34,257 nucleotides of DNA, taken from positions 1 to 34,257 of the forward strand of contig JAJTFE010000047.1 in the NCBI GenBank assembly GCA_021298375.1, in the 5' to 3' direction. This DNA comes from Blastopirellula sp. GTDB lineage: Bacteria; Planctomycetota; Planctomycetia; Pirellulales; Pirellulaceae. The first letter of the stretch is position 1. Each line of letters opens with the position of its first letter. Below are positions 11,661 through 18,256 of this stretch, piece after piece. Made by a program: the position numbers and the translations under genes. The notes beneath the pieces are model-generated. The model did no database searches and was not told the DNA's origin. It worked only from the letters and a program-made list of their open reading frames with translations.

Positions 11661-14600
11661 CTACTTCCCTCCGGCAAAGATTGCGGGGACTTCCAGCTCC
11701 CGGGCCCGCTGATTCAATTCCGCCAAGCGGGGGCCGAGCAAAACCTCCAGTTGCTTCAGTTGGCCATCAATCAGCGCCGTCACTTCGTCCCGAACAGCGG
11801 TCGCCTGACTGGTCGGACGATTGTCGCCATCGCTGACGACACTCACCAGTCCCGAAAGTCGATTGTTGAGCTTAATCGGATAATTCAACGGGTCCTGACC
11901 GCTGCGGTTCTGCACCTGATAAAGCTCCTGCTCGATTCCCGTCAGTTCTCCGACCAGCTGGTCGATCGCTTCGCCCAGAGTCCGGAACTTTTCGTCAGCA
12001 CCGATTCTCTGCTTCAGCCCCTGCAATTGACTGCGGACATCGCGGAGCCTCTTGATCGACCGATGGGTCTCACTGAGCTTGTCGCGAACGGCGATCAGAA
12101 AATCGAATTGGGCGCGAATATCTTCGACTCCGGCGGCAGAGCGCGGGTCCTTGAGAATCTCGAATTCGCCGGTCTGAACCTGCTCCCCAACGGTCAGCTG
12201 AACCTTGTAAACACCGGGCGCTGCCAGTGGTCCTTGAGTCCCGCCACCCCAGAGGATCAAACCGTCAAAAGTCTCGGCCGCGTCATAACGCAAGTTCCAA
12301 GCGAGGACGTTCAGGCCGGGTTTGACTCCCAGCTGCTTCTCGCCTGCGGCTGGTTGGGTGCTGTAGGTGTTGACTGGGCGACCGGCGTAATCGGTGATTG
12401 CAAGTGTCACTCGCGGTGCCTTGGCCGGAGCGAATTCTCCCAGCACAAATCGCAGCGGAATTTCGGCGCGGAGATTGGCTCCGGCGGTCGCGCTGGCGCG
12501 ACCGGCTCCGCCATCCATGCGGTACACCGGGCGCGAGCCGAGCAAATGCGGCTGGCCGTCAAACCAGGCCGGGTCCCAGGTCCGAAGCAGAGTCAGGTCA
12601 TCGAGCGCCCAGAAAGACCGCCCTTGGGTGGCAACGATCAAATCACCATCCTTGATGGTCAAATCGGTAACCGGCACCAGCGGCAGATTGTTCTGGAACC
12701 GACGCCAGCTGTTGCCGTCATCGTAAGACAGGTACATCCCGTTTTCAGTGCCCGCGAAAAGCAGCCCCCGGCGGACCGGATCTGCCCGGACCACTCGGGT
12801 AAAGTCTTCGCGGCCAATTCCCGTGACAAGCTTGGTCCAGGTTTTGCCAAAGTCGGTCGTGCGGAACAGATAGGGCCGGAAGTCATCGGACTTGTAACAG
12901 GTCGCGGCGACATACAGACCGCCCGGCTCAAACGGATGCGCTTCGATGCTGTTAATCTGGGCCCAGTTCGGCAAATCGGGAGGCGTGACGTTGGTCCAGG
13001 TCTGCCCGGCATCCCGCGTCACATGCAACAGGCCGTCGTCGCTGCCAGTCCAGATGACTCCTTGTTCCAGCGCGGATTCGGCCACGGCAAAGATTGTGCA
13101 GTAGTATTCAACCCCAGTATTATCTTTGGTGATCGGCCCGCCGGACGGTCCCATCTTGGACGGATCATTCCGCGTCAGGTCGCCGCTGATTTGCGTCCAG
13201 CTTTGCCCCTCGTCGGTGGTTTTGAAGAGCGCGTTGCCCGCAGCGTAAAGCGTTTGCGGGTCGTGACGCGAGAAGAGTATCGGGAAGTTCCATTGAAAGC
13301 GGAACTTGATGTCCCGCGCGCCGTAGCCCATCGGGTTGTCCGGCCAGACGTTGACCGTGCGGCTTTCGCCGGTCTGGTGATTGATGCGGGTCAGATAACC
13401 GCCGTAGGAACCGCCGTAAACAATTTCGGGATTCTTCGGGTCGGGAGCGATGTGTCCACTCTCGCCACCGGCGGTCTGCTCCCAACTTCGCTCATCCAGA
13501 AACCCGCCACTCGATCGATGCGAAAGACGCACGGTCGAATTGTCCTGCTGGGCTCCGTAAATCCGGTAGGGAAAATGATTGTCCGCAACGACCCGGTAGA
13601 ACTGGGCAGTCGGCTGGTTCTCATAAGTCGAAAACGTCGCCCCGCGATTGAACGAGACCTGGGCTCCGCCATCATCGCCAACAATCATCCGATCGGGATC
13701 GGCCGGGTCAATCCAGAGGTCATGGTGATCGCCGTGGGGCGTACTGATCGAGTTGAACTTCTTTCCGCCGTCTTCCGACCGCCAGAACTCGACGTTCACG
13801 ACGTACACTTCCTCGCGATCTTTCGGTCCGGCATAGACGCGCGAGTAATACCAGGCTCGTTGCCGCAGATTGCGATCGTCATTGATCCGCTGCCAGGTCG
13901 CGCCCGCGTCATCGCTGCGAAATAGCCCGCCGTCGTCGGCTTCGATGATCGCCCAAACCCGGTTGGAGTCGACTGGGGAAACTGCGACGCCGATAATTCC
14001 CAACGTACCACCCGGTAGTCCCGGACGGCGCGAAATTTCCTCCCACGTATCTCCACCATCGGAACTCTTCCAGAGGCCGGAGCCGGGGCCGCCGCTCTCC
14101 AGGCTGTAGGGCGTCCGCAGGACCCGCCAGGTGGAAGCGTACAGCACCCGGGGATTGCTGGGATCAATGATCAGGTCGCAAGCGCCAACTTCGTCATTGA
14201 CATACAGAACCTTTTCCCAAGTTGCGCCGCCATCGCGGGAGCGAAACACGCCGCGCTCGCGGTTGGGACCGTACAGGTGCCCCAGCGCGGCGACGTAGAC
14301 GAGATTGGGATCCTTGGGGTGAACGCGGATCCGAGGAATGTGTCGGGAGTCCTCCAGCCCGATCGCTTTCCAGGTCTTGCCGCCATCGATCGATTTCCAC
14401 ATCCCTTGTCCGCTGGAGACATTTCCGCGGACGGTCACCTCGCCACCGCCGACGTAGAGGATATTGGGGTCTGAAGGGGCGGCAGCAACCGCTCCGATCG
14501 AGCCACCAAAGTAACCATCGCTAATGTTCCGCCAGGTCGTGCCGCCATCGTCCGTCCGCCAAACGCCGCCACCCGTTGTTCCCATGTAATACGTCTGCGG

Positions 14601-14687
14601 CTGGCCGATTACCCAGAGAGCAGCAACTGCCACGCTCGAAACGGCCAAACTGACTGCCAACCAAAACTTCAAAAACGGGTGCAACAT
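11661..14687 (-). CDS. Large secreted Asp-box (BNR/VPS10-like) beta-propeller protein
   Basis: A 1008-residue protein. Residues about 5-27 are hydrophobic (signal peptide or anchor). At least ten Asp-box motifs of the form S/D-x-D-G-G-x-T-W follow (DDGGTTW, DGGKTW, DGGATW, DGGDTW, DAGATW, DEGQSW, DAGQTW, DFGKTW and others). This is typical of sortilin/VPS10-type and sialidase-like propellers annotated as BNR glycosyl hydrolases. After the propellers come a beta-sandwich-like stretch and a helical C-terminus (about 870-1008) rich in Gln, Leu and Arg. The opening looks short for the family: the signal sequence runs almost directly into TYYMGTTGGGVW, without the usual W..IGP..GGR segment. Substrate and enzymatic activity are unknown. 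The ATG at 14687 is the best start. Confidence 0.85.
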   Translation of the reverse strand: MLHPFLKFWLAVSLAVSSVAVAALWVIGQPQTYYMGTTGGGVWRTDDGGTTWRNISDGYFGGSIGAVAAAPSDPNILYVGGGEVTVRGNVSSGQGMWKSIDGGKTWKAIGLEDSRHIPRIRVHPKDPNLVYVAALGHLYGPNRERGVFRSRDGGATWEKVLYVNDEVGACDLIIDPSNPRVLYASTWRVLRTPYSLESGGPGSGLWKSSDGGDTWEEISRRPGLPGGTLGIIGVAVSPVDSNRVWAIIEADDGGLFRSDDAGATWQRINDDRNLRQRAWYYSRVYAGPKDREEVYVVNVEFWRSEDGGKKFNSISTPHGDHHDLWIDPADPDRMIVGDDGGAQVSFNRGATFSTYENQPTAQFYRVVADNHFPYRIYGAQQDNSTVRLSHRSSGGFLDERSWEQTAGGESGHIAPDPKNPEIVYGGSYGGYLTRINHQTGESRTVNVWPDNPMGYGARDIKFRFQWNFPILFSRHDPQTLYAAGNALFKTTDEGQSWTQISGDLTRNDPSKMGPSGGPITKDNTGVEYYCTIFAVAESALEQGVIWTGSDDGLLHVTRDAGQTWTNVTPPDLPNWAQINSIEAHPFEPGGLYVAATCYKSDDFRPYLFRTTDFGKTWTKLVTGIGREDFTRVVRADPVRRGLLFAGTENGMYLSYDDGNSWRRFQNNLPLVPVTDLTIKDGDLIVATQGRSFWALDDLTLLRTWDPAWFDGQPHLLGSRPVYRMDGGAGRASATAGANLRAEIPLRFVLGEFAPAKAPRVTLAITDYAGRPVNTYSTQPAAGEKQLGVKPGLNVLAWNLRYDAAETFDGLILWGGGTQGPLAAPGVYKVQLTVGEQVQTGEFEILKDPRSAAGVEDIRAQFDFLIAVRDKLSETHRSIKRLRDVRSQLQGLKQRIGADEKFRTLGEAIDQLVGELTGIEQELYQVQNRSGQDPLNYPIKLNNRLSGLVSVVSDGDNRPTSQATAVRDEVTALIDGQLKQLEVLLGPRLAELNQRARELEVPAIFAGGK

Positions 14688-15154
14688 CGGGCAACTCCCA
14701 ATCAAGTGGTGTCCATCTGCACCCATCTTAATTCAAGCTGGCGAGGAATGCTCGAAGCGGAAAGAGCCGCGACCAAGAGTGCCGCGGACTGCCACCGAGA
14801 GCTGGCTGAACCGAAAGAAACGCTGGTTTTGATGCGCTCAACCCGCGGCGCTAAGCGTCTGGCAGTGGCCGGTTAAGGAGTCTGGCTCGAACGACAGCCT
14901 TTGGCAGTCAGCTCGAGAGCCGACTCCGACCTCCCGAACCGGGCAAGCTGGGCAAGCTGGGAAAACGCCAAGCCAATTCGGTCTCAAAGGTCGAAATTTT
15001 CTTCACATTTCTTCACATTTCACCACCGACAAGACCGCTCTGAAAGCTCTTTGAATGTCGATAGGAGACTGGCGAATACACAAGCTTTTTGGTCTGGGCA
15101 AACATTGCCGCTAGCATCCCGCCCCCCCCCTTTCAGCAGACAATTGAACCACCC
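14688..15154. other. Divergent intergenic region between Asp-box and porin genes
   Basis: This is 467 bases between two divergent genes, so it should carry both promoters. Two tiny direct repeats are visible: GGGCAAGCT twice at about 14941-14958, and TTCTTCACAT twice near 14999-15018. A run of nine C lies at 15121-15129. No supportable gene and no clear promoter boxes were found. Confidence 0.45.
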
Positions 15155-16747
15155 ATGCGTTTTCGAAAGATGGAACGAGCCTGCATCTACCTGAGCCTGT
15201 TGCTTGGCTGGCTGGCCGTCCCCAGTGGGTCGGTTGCCCAAAGCCCGGAGCAGGGCGGCTTGATCATTCCGGCCCCTGGCAGCGTGGCCGGCCCACTTTC
15301 GCCCCGGCCAGCGACGCCGCTGCGTTCTTTCCCCCCGCGCTCGGAAGAGAGCGAGCGTCTCCCTTGGCAGCGCGCGAGCTTTCCGCAATCGGGTGAATCC
15401 CAAGACCCGACGCTGCCGGTACTGGAGAGCCCTCCTGCCCCAGTAGCTCAAGAGCAGGCAGACGCTGCAGCTTTGGACAAAGACTCAAAAGAGGCTCAGC
15501 CGTCCGAGAAAAAGGAAGACGAGGAGAAAGAGAAGAAGGAAGACAAGAAAGAAGAAAAGAAAAAAGACGAGGAAAAGAAGTGGTACGAGAAGTACCGCTT
15601 TCGGGGTTACGCCCAATTGCGGATGAATGAAGTCCTCGAAGAAGAGGGGGCCGATGCCCAACTGGTGGGCGATAGTGGAGTGGGTGATGGCCAAAGTTTC
15701 TCGCTGCGGCGAGCTCGGTTGATTTTTCAAGGTGATATCACGGACCGGATCGGCGTCTACCTGCAGCCCGATTTCGCAGCCACCCCCAACGGAGCAGTCG
15801 ATTCAATTCAGTTCGTTCAAATACGTGACTGGTACAGCGACATCCACCTGGACGACGACAAAGTCTACCGTTTCCGGGTTGGTCAATCGAAGATTCCTTA
15901 CGGCTGGGAGAACATGCAGTCCAGCCAAAACCGTTTGCCTCTCGATCGTAACGACGCCCTGAACAGCGCCGCCCGCAACGAACGCGATTTGGGTGTCTTC
16001 TATTACTACACCCCGAAATCCGCTCAAGAGCTGTTCAAGTATGTGCTCGACGAAAACCTCAAGGGCTCAGGCAACTACGGCTTGTTCGGCATGGGCTTTT
16101 ACAACGGCCAAGGCGGCTCCTTCCGTGAACAAAACGACAACCTCCACTTCATCACCCGCCTCGCGGTACCGAAAGTGCTCTCCAACGGACAGATCGTCGA
16201 GTGGGGCCTGATGGGCTACACCGGCATGTACTCCGTCCTCGGCTCGCCCATCAGTCCACTGGGCGCAGGCCCGGCCGTCACGCCGCTGGGAACCAGCAAT
16301 ACGAATAACCCGGACGGGATTGTCGACAAGCGAGCCGCCGCCACGTTCGTCTACTATCCCCAGCCCTTGGGCTTTCAAGCCGAATGGACCGTGGGCCGCG
16401 GGCCGGGACTGAATGACGCGCAAACAGAGGTGATCGACCGGTCGCTCTACGGAGGCTATGCCATGTTGATGTACCGATATGTCACCTGTGACCACGGCGA
16501 GTTCTGGCCATTCGCGAGGTACAACTACTACCAGGGTGGTTACAAATCCGAACGCAATGCGCCCTACTCCCACATTGAAGAATGGGAACTCGGCTTGGAA
16601 TGGCAATTCAACAAGAGCCTCGAATTGGTCACGATGTATACCTTCACCGATCGGACCAACACCCGCGCGATTGGCTCGGCCAACACCGAGTCTTACGAGC
16701 AATTCGTCGGCGACCTGCTCCGCTTCCAACTGCAGTGGAATTATTAG
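15155..16747 (+). CDS. Phosphate-selective porin O/P-like outer-membrane protein
   Basis: A 530-residue predicted outer-membrane beta-barrel of the OprO/OprP family. A signal peptide covers residues 1-28 or so (LSLLLGWLAVPSGSVAQ). A Pro-rich stretch follows, then an almost purely Lys/Glu/Asp segment at 111-142. The barrel starts at YRFRGYAQLRMN (147 onward) with family features FSLRRARLIFQGDI, RVGQSKIPYGWEN and ENLKGSGNYG. It ends in alternating residues and a terminal aromatic (FQLQWNY), as expected for BAM-dependent barrels. The ATG at 15155 is preferred over a TTG further upstream; ATG at 15170 is also possible. Phosphate or pyrophosphate selectivity is a family inference, not visible here. 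Confidence 0.85.
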   Translation: MRFRKMERACIYLSLLLGWLAVPSGSVAQSPEQGGLIIPAPGSVAGPLSPRPATPLRSFPPRSEESERLPWQRASFPQSGESQDPTLPVLESPPAPVAQEQADAAALDKDSKEAQPSEKKEDEEKEKKEDKKEEKKKDEEKKWYEKYRFRGYAQLRMNEVLEEEGADAQLVGDSGVGDGQSFSLRRARLIFQGDITDRIGVYLQPDFAATPNGAVDSIQFVQIRDWYSDIHLDDDKVYRFRVGQSKIPYGWENMQSSQNRLPLDRNDALNSAARNERDLGVFYYYTPKSAQELFKYVLDENLKGSGNYGLFGMGFYNGQGGSFREQNDNLHFITRLAVPKVLSNGQIVEWGLMGYTGMYSVLGSPISPLGAGPAVTPLGTSNTNNPDGIVDKRAAATFVYYPQPLGFQAEWTVGRGPGLNDAQTEVIDRSLYGGYAMLMYRYVTCDHGEFWPFARYNYYQGGYKSERNAPYSHIEEWELGLEWQFNKSLELVTMYTFTDRTNTRAIGSANTESYEQFVGDLLRFQLQWNY

Positions 16748-16895: not shown

Positions 16896-16928
16896 ACAAA
16901 AAACCCGCCGGACGGCTCCGACGGGTTT
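16896..16928 (-). terminator. Intrinsic terminator of the FG-GAP gene
   Basis: In minus-strand RNA the arms AACCCG and CGGA pair with TCCG and CGGGTT, giving 10 bp with one internal mismatch around a 4-base loop. A run of T follows (the A-run at 16896-16903 on the plus strand). It starts about 33 bases after the FG-GAP stop codon. A long 3' terminator specific to this gene supports the view that the part after the internal TGA is still a working transcript. Confidence 0.75.
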
Positions 16929-16960: not shown

Positions 16961-18256
16961 CTACTTGGTCGCGGTCGGCTTGGGCTTTTGCAGATAGAGC
17001 CAGACGAAGCCGGTATTTTCTGCTTGCTGAAACTCACTCTGCCCAGCAAACAGCTTCTGGATTTCGGCTTGGGTTTCCTGCATTGCCTTGGTCACGTCTT
17101 CTGGGAGTTCCTCTCCTTTTTCACGCGCGGCCATGTATTGCTCCATGATCGGCTGCTGCTTCCGGGCCAACTCCTGCAGTGCCTCGCGATGAGCCTCGCG
17201 CTTCTGCTCAAACTCTTCCAGGCTCAAGCCTTTGGCAGGCTGGATCAAACTGGCTGAGTCCCCGACCAGCAAGTCAAGCAACCCGTCACCATTCCAATCG
17301 GTCGCCCAAACGCGCGTCGACTGCGAAGGCTGAATGCTCGTCCCCTCGCTCAAGAGCTGTTCGGACTGCTGGCTCGCCGGAATCAGCCTTTGGAACTCGC
17401 TCCACGTTGGCTCCGATCGGGTCCCGGTGTTTTCAGCATAAAGCACACCGCCATTGCCACTGCCGCTGAGCAGGTCCAAATCGCCATCGCCATCCCAGTC
17501 AACCAGGTGCGGCGCCGAGTGGTAATCGGGCGACTTGAGAGCGAGCTTCTGCGGCGTGGTCACCAAGGCCGGCTTCTCTGCCGTTCCCTTGTTTTCGTAA
17601 AAGAAAAAATCCTGTCCGAAGCAGCCGACCACCAAATCCAAATCGCCATCGCCGTCGTAATCGACCGCATGCTGCTGGACGCATATGATCGACGTCTGGT
17701 TTGATTCATCTTCCGCCAGAGCCTCATTCAGCAGCGGCTTGCCCTCACCGCTGAGCAAATCAATCGACTCGGCGAAGTCCAGTCCGCCGCGGCCGGCGAG
17801 CAGTTGAATGTGTCCTCCGTCCGCGCCTTCTGTCCAGTAGCAGCCACTGAGGATGTCGAGCTTGCCGTCGCCGGTCCAATCCACAAACTGTGGAGTTGAG
17901 CTGGTGCATCACCAGACTCCGGGCACGATTGCCCGTTCCTCGCCAGTCTTCAGCCACTGGGCCGCAGCCAATCTGGGGGTCTGCCCCGGCTCGGCGAGGT
18001 TTTTGAAGAACTGCATGTGGCCTTGATTAAACTGGCCGACGATCAGATCCAGTTTGCCGTCGCCGTCGACATCAGCGACCGTCGGGCAGGCGTAGCCAGG
18101 CGACTCGACCTTGATTGGTTGCGCATCGGCCTCCAGCCGCACGGGCGGCTCGAACTCCGATTCCTGAGCCGACAGGCGAGCGCCGCCCGGGCTGCCAGCA
18201 ACCGCCGCCGAAACTCCCAAGATTGCAGTCAGCAACAACCGCCAATTTCGCTTCAT
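16961..18256 (-). CDS. Secreted FG-GAP/VCBS propeller, candidate selenoprotein with in-frame TGA (Sec116)
   Basis: One reading frame of 432 codons from ATG 18256 to TAG 16961-16963 contains a single TGA at 17909-17911 (codon 116). Residues 1-30 are a signal peptide (LLLTAILGVSAAVA). Calcium-binding FG-GAP repeats of the form D.D.DG..DL..G occur on both sides of the TGA: DVDGDGKLDLIVG before it, then DWTGDGKLDILSG, DYDGDGDLDLVVG, DWDGDGDLDLLSG and DWNGDGLLDLLVG. A charged coiled coil and the closing GFVWLYL follow. The frame does not shift across the TGA, and the local sequence reads GVW-U-CTSSTPQFVDW. A hairpin right after the TGA fits a bacterial SECIS. GGGA precedes the ATG by about 8 bases. 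The alternatives are a recent nonsense mutation or a sequencing error. Residue 117 is Cys, giving a Sec-Cys pair. Its function is unknown. Confidence 0.75.
17876..17911 (-). promoter_or_regulatory. Candidate bacterial SECIS element following the UGA
   Basis: Counting from the base after UGA, positions 10-13 pair with 30-33 and positions 15-20 pair with 24-29. Position 14 (C) is bulged and 21-23 (GUU) form the loop, giving 10 bp with one G·U pair. In E. coli fdhF, as I recall it, the bulged U is also 14 bases after the UGA and the loop begins with GU at 20-21, so the geometry is almost the same. The bulge here is C instead of U. A second short palindrome, CUGGUG-AUG-CACCAG, spans the UGA itself and could compete. 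Checked by hand only. Confidence 0.6.

Follow-up and report, generated by a model that had tools for sequence, protein, structure and literature searches.

A widespread Planctomycetota family of FG-GAP propeller genes with an in-frame UGA very probably read as selenocysteine

Results

The window analysed here is a whole stretch of 34,257 nucleotides of Blastopirellula sp. DNA (contig JAJTFE010000047.1). On its minus strand a frame runs from an ATG at 18256 to a TAG at 16961, and its sole interruption is a TGA at 17911-17909 (codon 116), directly followed by TGC (Cys). A preliminary description of this DNA had proposed a selenoprotein gene here, with one TGA splitting an otherwise open frame, a Cys codon next to it, FG-GAP repeats on both sides and a terminator behind the gene. 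Translation of 16961-18256 confirmed the split frame and the adjacent Cys codon, Pfam confirmed the flanking repeats, and the terminator is present at 16928-16901. The features of the locus are as follows.

16961..18256, minus strand: candidate selenoprotein gene; 431 residues with the TGA at codon 116 read through as Sec; ends in TAG
18164..18256, minus strand: signal-peptide-like N-terminus MKRNWRLLLTAILGVSAAVAGSPGGARLSAQ, recognised from sequence and modelled as disordered, with pLDDT below 50 for residues 1-30; cleavage site putative
18035..18085, minus strand: FG-GAP repeat 1, residues 58-74 (Pfam FG-GAP at 59-74)
17909..17911, minus strand: TGA codon 116, predicted from the comparison of homologue codons to be read as selenocysteine; Cys codon next
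17880..17894, minus strand: putative bSECIS hairpin; 5' arm 17894-17890 UCCAC, loop 17889-17885 AGUUU, 3' arm 17884-17880 GUGGA
17843..17893, minus strand: FG-GAP-like repeat 2, residues 122-138, from alignment; directly after the Sec-Cys loop and overlapping the SECIS
17468..17662, minus strand: FG-GAP repeats 3 and 4, residues 199-263 (best stretch of Pfam FG-GAP_3, 199-263)
17039..17221, minus strand: helical hairpin inserted close to the C-terminus at residues 346-406; the AlphaFold2 model places helices at 346-379 and 386-406
16901..16928, minus strand: intrinsic-terminator-like hairpin after the gene's TAG, 12 pairs and a T-rich tail

Neighbouring genes encode a porin-like protein (15089-16747, plus strand) and a 1021-residue sortilin/BNR-repeat-like protein (11661-14726), both named from a reading of the sequence only. 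An Rfam search of the window matched no family.

For the window protein, Pfam gave PF13517 at 80.9 bits (cut-off 26.9) and PF01839 at 38.9 bits (cut-off 22.1) and reported only FG-GAP_3, FG-GAP and TcdB_toxin_midN, while NCBIfam, which includes named selenoprotein models, gave no match at E 0.001 or better. The AlphaFold2 model has a pLDDT of 89 and a pTM of 0.86, and its closest matches among solved folds are the five-bladed propellers of GH62/GH43, with Z up to 19.7 and mostly 5-12% identity. By sequence the protein is not a GH43 or GH62 member, Pfam finding only the three families just named, and the glycosidase fold match is one of shared architecture only and says nothing on function. The nearest folds suggest an FG-GAP beta-propeller of five blades. 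The preliminary description had called the protein an exported calcium-binding propeller; the propeller was borne out by Pfam and by the confident model, export is suggested by a single feature, the signal-peptide-like N-terminus, and calcium may be bound through the DxDxDG-type motifs. In the predicted model the Sec116-Cys117 pair sits in the loop that precedes the second repeat's first strand. Such loops in propellers commonly hold binding or active sites. No conserved gene neighbourhood was found across 26 loci and the family has no invariant Cys or His beyond the Sec-Cys pair, and thus no substrate is indicated.

The family was searched for in a draw of 392 Planctomycetota genomes, the search being confined to Planctomycetota. 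It is present in 100 of these, and TGA-bearing members occur in 92, about a quarter of the sample. Five planctomycete MAG contigs carry homologues of 51-54% identity over nearly the full length, each with TGA at the same codon, and among 60 relatives the top matches likewise have TGA at this position. The position of codon 116 was located in 82 loci, or 81 once a duplicate of the window had been removed. In these 81 distinct Planctomycetota loci the codon is TGA (73), TGC (6) or TGT (2), so that every one has UGA or Cys, as was to be expected from the preliminary reading of the codon as Sec; homologues without TGA never have Trp. The Cys that directly follows is found in 73/73 TGA members and in seven of the eight Cys members. 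A UGA that is conserved in homologues or aligned with Cys is a mark of bacterial selenoproteins, and with 73 TGA and 8 Cys members the family bears it. Two motif classes are common: VPGVW-U-C-TSSTPQFVD, which includes the window's protein, and a second in which G or W precedes U-C-[VI]-G, usually with PQ after it. At least three separate changes between Sec and Cys are placed on the family tree.

At least three TGA-bearing family members per genome were seen in G443, G072, G084, G178, G216, G243 and G269, and two of those in G443 lie close together (C1 3126482 and 3130869). One homologue, L118 (G062), has a long extra C-terminal region between the propeller and the stop. Second TGAs in several homologues were considered as signs of double selenoproteins and rejected; in those inspected they are terminal stops.

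The Sec machinery presupposed by the preliminary description was recovered in part from the window's own assembly: selA was detected at 573 bits and selB at 359 bits, the latter aligning with positions 2-580 of a 581-position model, but neither selD nor tRNA-Sec was found in this 78%-complete MAG. Both are present in a genome of the same genus (G001), where the tRNA-Sec anticodon appears to be UCA. In the window's genome the Rfam matches to tRNA-Sec fell below the cut-off, the eight best of them being ordinary tRNAs (Ser, Leu, Gly, Trp, Tyr, Thr), and a DNA search with the G001 tRNA-Sec was negative. The formate dehydrogenase of this genome has no in-frame TGA.

Across the sample, selA occurs in 89 of the 92 genomes with a TGA member, the remaining three being 77-82% complete, and in 153 of the 300 genomes that have none (Fisher p 1.5e-18 over the 392 genomes, uncorrected for relatedness). 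selA is absent from the genomes of the six Cys members of genus g62 and from G052, whose family match is partial and distant. One member (L113) has a Cys codon, TGT, in a genome that keeps selA (G245), having switched from Sec to Cys with the machinery still in place. In one 99%-complete relative (G006; L079, L065) a tRNA-Sec-like gene was detected at 65.8 bits along with a SelD that contains an in-frame TGA, but neither selA nor selB exceeded the cut-off; Sec decoding may have been lost recently, or the assembly may have gaps. SelD lies in long open frames of ~740-840 residues in G001, G018, G025, G030, G040, G045 and G058, suggesting a fusion to another domain.

Downstream of the TGA in the window, the arms 17894-17890 and 17884-17880 form a stem closed by the loop AGUUU. 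The GU of this loop begins at +21, and folding of the single sequence leaves the C at +14 unpaired. The preliminary description had drawn attention to both, a bulge at 14 and a loop GU at 21. Both occur in the window, but the bulge is not a family feature, as +14 and +30 form a standard pair in 32 of the 73 TGA members. The bulge at 14 and loop at 20 that it ascribed to E. coli fdhF agree with our count (bulged U at +14, loop GU at +20), and the fdhF stretch used for this count matches fdhF in 5,368 of 5,426 E. coli genomes.

In the stem, positions +15 to +19 pair with +25 to +29 in 98.3% of cells, against 22-50% for slid registers. Three of the five pairs have changed on both sides, and 0/500 shuffles reach the observed pairing. 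Because the hairpin region is coding, the expectation was obtained by redrawing synonymous codons at each gene's own usage: all five pairs are kept in 67 of 73 TGA members against 1.6 (sd 1.3) expected, and in none of the eight Cys members. CCA accounts for 55 of 68 cases at the Pro codon of the stem, although it makes up 13% of Pro codons in the rest of these genes. Furthermore, compensatory changes alter the predicted protein yet preserve the stem. Pairing is kept when CCAC/GUGG becomes CCGC/GCGG (Val to Ala), in the CUGC/GCAG stem of L140 (Pro to Leu and Val to Ala) and in a Pro to Ser change with a U-G pair. On the tree, about seven changes are needed at the commonest covarying pair; a tree-based test of independent pairs had only four well-supported contrasts, too few for significance (mean 2.9 in the same direction, 0 opposite).

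The loop is AG[UG]UN or AGUUN in 69 of the 73 TGA members, which fits the published bSECIS loop pattern, and a G falls within its first two positions in 70. Set against the published bSECIS model, the window has a 5-nt loop AGUUU, a 5-bp stem and 19 nt from UGA to loop. The MFE threshold for a bSECIS is -7.5 kcal/mol or lower (PMC13188914); the longer window hairpin passes at -8.5 kcal/mol, as do 56 of 74 TGA rows and 0/8 Cys rows. Taken alone, the window hairpin folds no better than shuffles (z -0.43), and thus it is the comparative evidence that carries the case. The SECIS-like hairpin of the preliminary description is upheld by covariation, by constraint on synonymous codons and by its loss where the codon is Cys, but not by its fold in the window, which is unremarkable. 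A SECIS-model search of the window's own genome found no second site. The next match to the model (E 0.03, L160) was rejected; it falls within a different FG-GAP gene, in which the TGA is apparently out of frame.

Together, the comparisons show that selection maintains the UGA of codon 116 as a Sec codon and that this codon is coupled to a hairpin, 15-29 nt downstream, in keeping with the published bSECIS model.

Discussion

Bacterial Sec insertion uses a UGA, a hairpin just downstream and delivery by SelB. By this established pathway, SelB would bind the hairpin and bring Sec-tRNA(Sec) to codon 116, and the ribosome would go on to complete the 431-residue protein rather than end at 115. The conserved TGA/Cys column, the selected hairpin and the presence of selA and selB support the earlier assignment of this codon, and we hold it very probable, for the decoding and not for the function, that UGA 116 is decoded as Sec.

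Three other readings of the TGA can be weighed against the same evidence. As the window comes from a fragmented MAG and a single base change turns TGG into TGA, the codon might be a pseudogene stop or an assembly error in an ordinary FG-GAP gene. The recurrence of the TGA in ~90 independent genomes excludes sequencing error, and a decayed gene is hard to reconcile with two conserved halves, an intact frame, a hairpin under selection and Cys, never Trp, in the homologues that lack TGA; we consider this explanation exceedingly improbable. We give just as little credence to a genome-wide reassignment of UGA (code 4 or 25), which would make codon 116 Trp or Gly. The frame is indeed open under such a code, but UGA serves as the normal terminal stop in 29 Sec members and in 8 of the 17 long ORFs of the window, from which we conclude that it is not reassigned; moreover the homologous residue is Cys, and reassignment leaves the downstream hairpin unexplained. 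A 3' hairpin can stimulate readthrough, and a near-cognate tRNA (Trp) might read the UGA in a programmed manner to give a 115-residue and a long form without Sec, the short form keeping the signal peptide and repeat 1. Such readthrough is very unlikely, because the residue that takes the place of the UGA in eight homologues is Cys and the hairpin vanishes with it; the tight link with selA and the fit of stem and loop to the published bSECIS model also speak against it.

Decoding of the UGA as Sec leaves the role of the Sec-Cys pair to be considered. The product would be exported and fold into an FG-GAP beta-propeller, judging from sequence and model, and the vicinal pair would cycle between selenol/thiol and a vicinal selenenylsulfide, with a Cys-Cys pair in its place in lineages without Sec machinery. 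We see an even chance that the pair is such a redox-active selenenylsulfide, in an extracytoplasmic redox enzyme or electron-transfer site. A vicinal Cys-Cys disulfide with a redox role in an exported propeller is known from PQQ methanol dehydrogenase, which has eight blades and a PQQ cofactor; its sequence is unrelated, and the comparison is an analogy only. The main alternative is that the protein is a selenoprotein whose Sec-Cys pair binds a metal (e.g. copper, zinc, mercury) or a small ligand. Many FG-GAP propellers act in binding, and no partner genes are conserved. Sec, however, is usually kept where redox reactivity pays, and a vicinal Cys-Cys replaces Sec-Cys in seven of the eight Sec-less members. 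Several catalogued selenoprotein families are metal-related (PMC13188914), and we regard metal or ligand binding as possible but the less probable role.

The family shares with the E. coli FdhF/SelB-bSECIS selenoproteins a UGA for Sec, a hairpin just downstream, an apical loop N-G-[G/U] and Sec machinery in the clade. In contrast to other bacterial bSECIS elements, the sequence and position of its hairpin (loop +20 to +24) are family-specific, the +14 bulge of the window is not conserved, and the protein fold is unrelated to that of FdhF. With FG-GAP/VCBS propeller proteins (PF13517, PF01839) it has in common the repeats, a signal-peptide-like start, DxDxDG-type loops and the propeller fold, and it differs from them in its invariant, predicted Sec-Cys pair. 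Vicinal pairs also occur in catalogued selenoproteins, as GxUC in CopZ-like proteins and as CU in SaoL, HgcA, SaoC, MbdU and KCU-star, but these belong to other domain families and none is listed with FG-GAP repeats (PMC13188914).

The preliminary description had held this protein class to be absent from the listed bacterial selenoproteins. This agrees with a 2026 inventory of 119 prokaryotic selenoprotein families, which lists no FG-GAP or propeller family (PMC13188914). Similarly, a literature text search for FG-GAP or VCBS in connection with selenoproteins or selenocysteine returned nothing relevant and no Sec-containing FG-GAP member. Selenoproteins are known in planctomycetes (PMC4807772), and the main text of that paper names none of the FG-GAP propeller type. 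As far as PMC13188914 and the text searches reach, the FG-GAP Sec-Cys family is large and uncatalogued, although priority is not certain.

Most characterised selenoproteins have thioredoxin-like folds (PMC13188914), in contrast to which the family described here is a predicted exported repeat-propeller. The finding is larger than one odd gene, as about one in four of the Planctomycetota genomes sampled has the family. Its genes are probably mis-annotated as two fragments in many genomes, because standard gene callers end the frame at this UGA. The switches between Sec and Cys, with loss of the hairpin, make the evolution from Sec to Cys directly testable, and the predicted 115-residue truncation product would be an easy reporter for UGA recoding in planctomycetes. 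The family also offers a concrete handle on why planctomycetes keep the Sec machinery. On balance we lean towards the view that these exported FG-GAP propellers with an invariant Sec-Cys pair form an uncatalogued, Planctomycetota-wide family that would constitute a new class of extracytoplasmic selenoenzymes, and may be a main reason why these lineages keep their Sec machinery.
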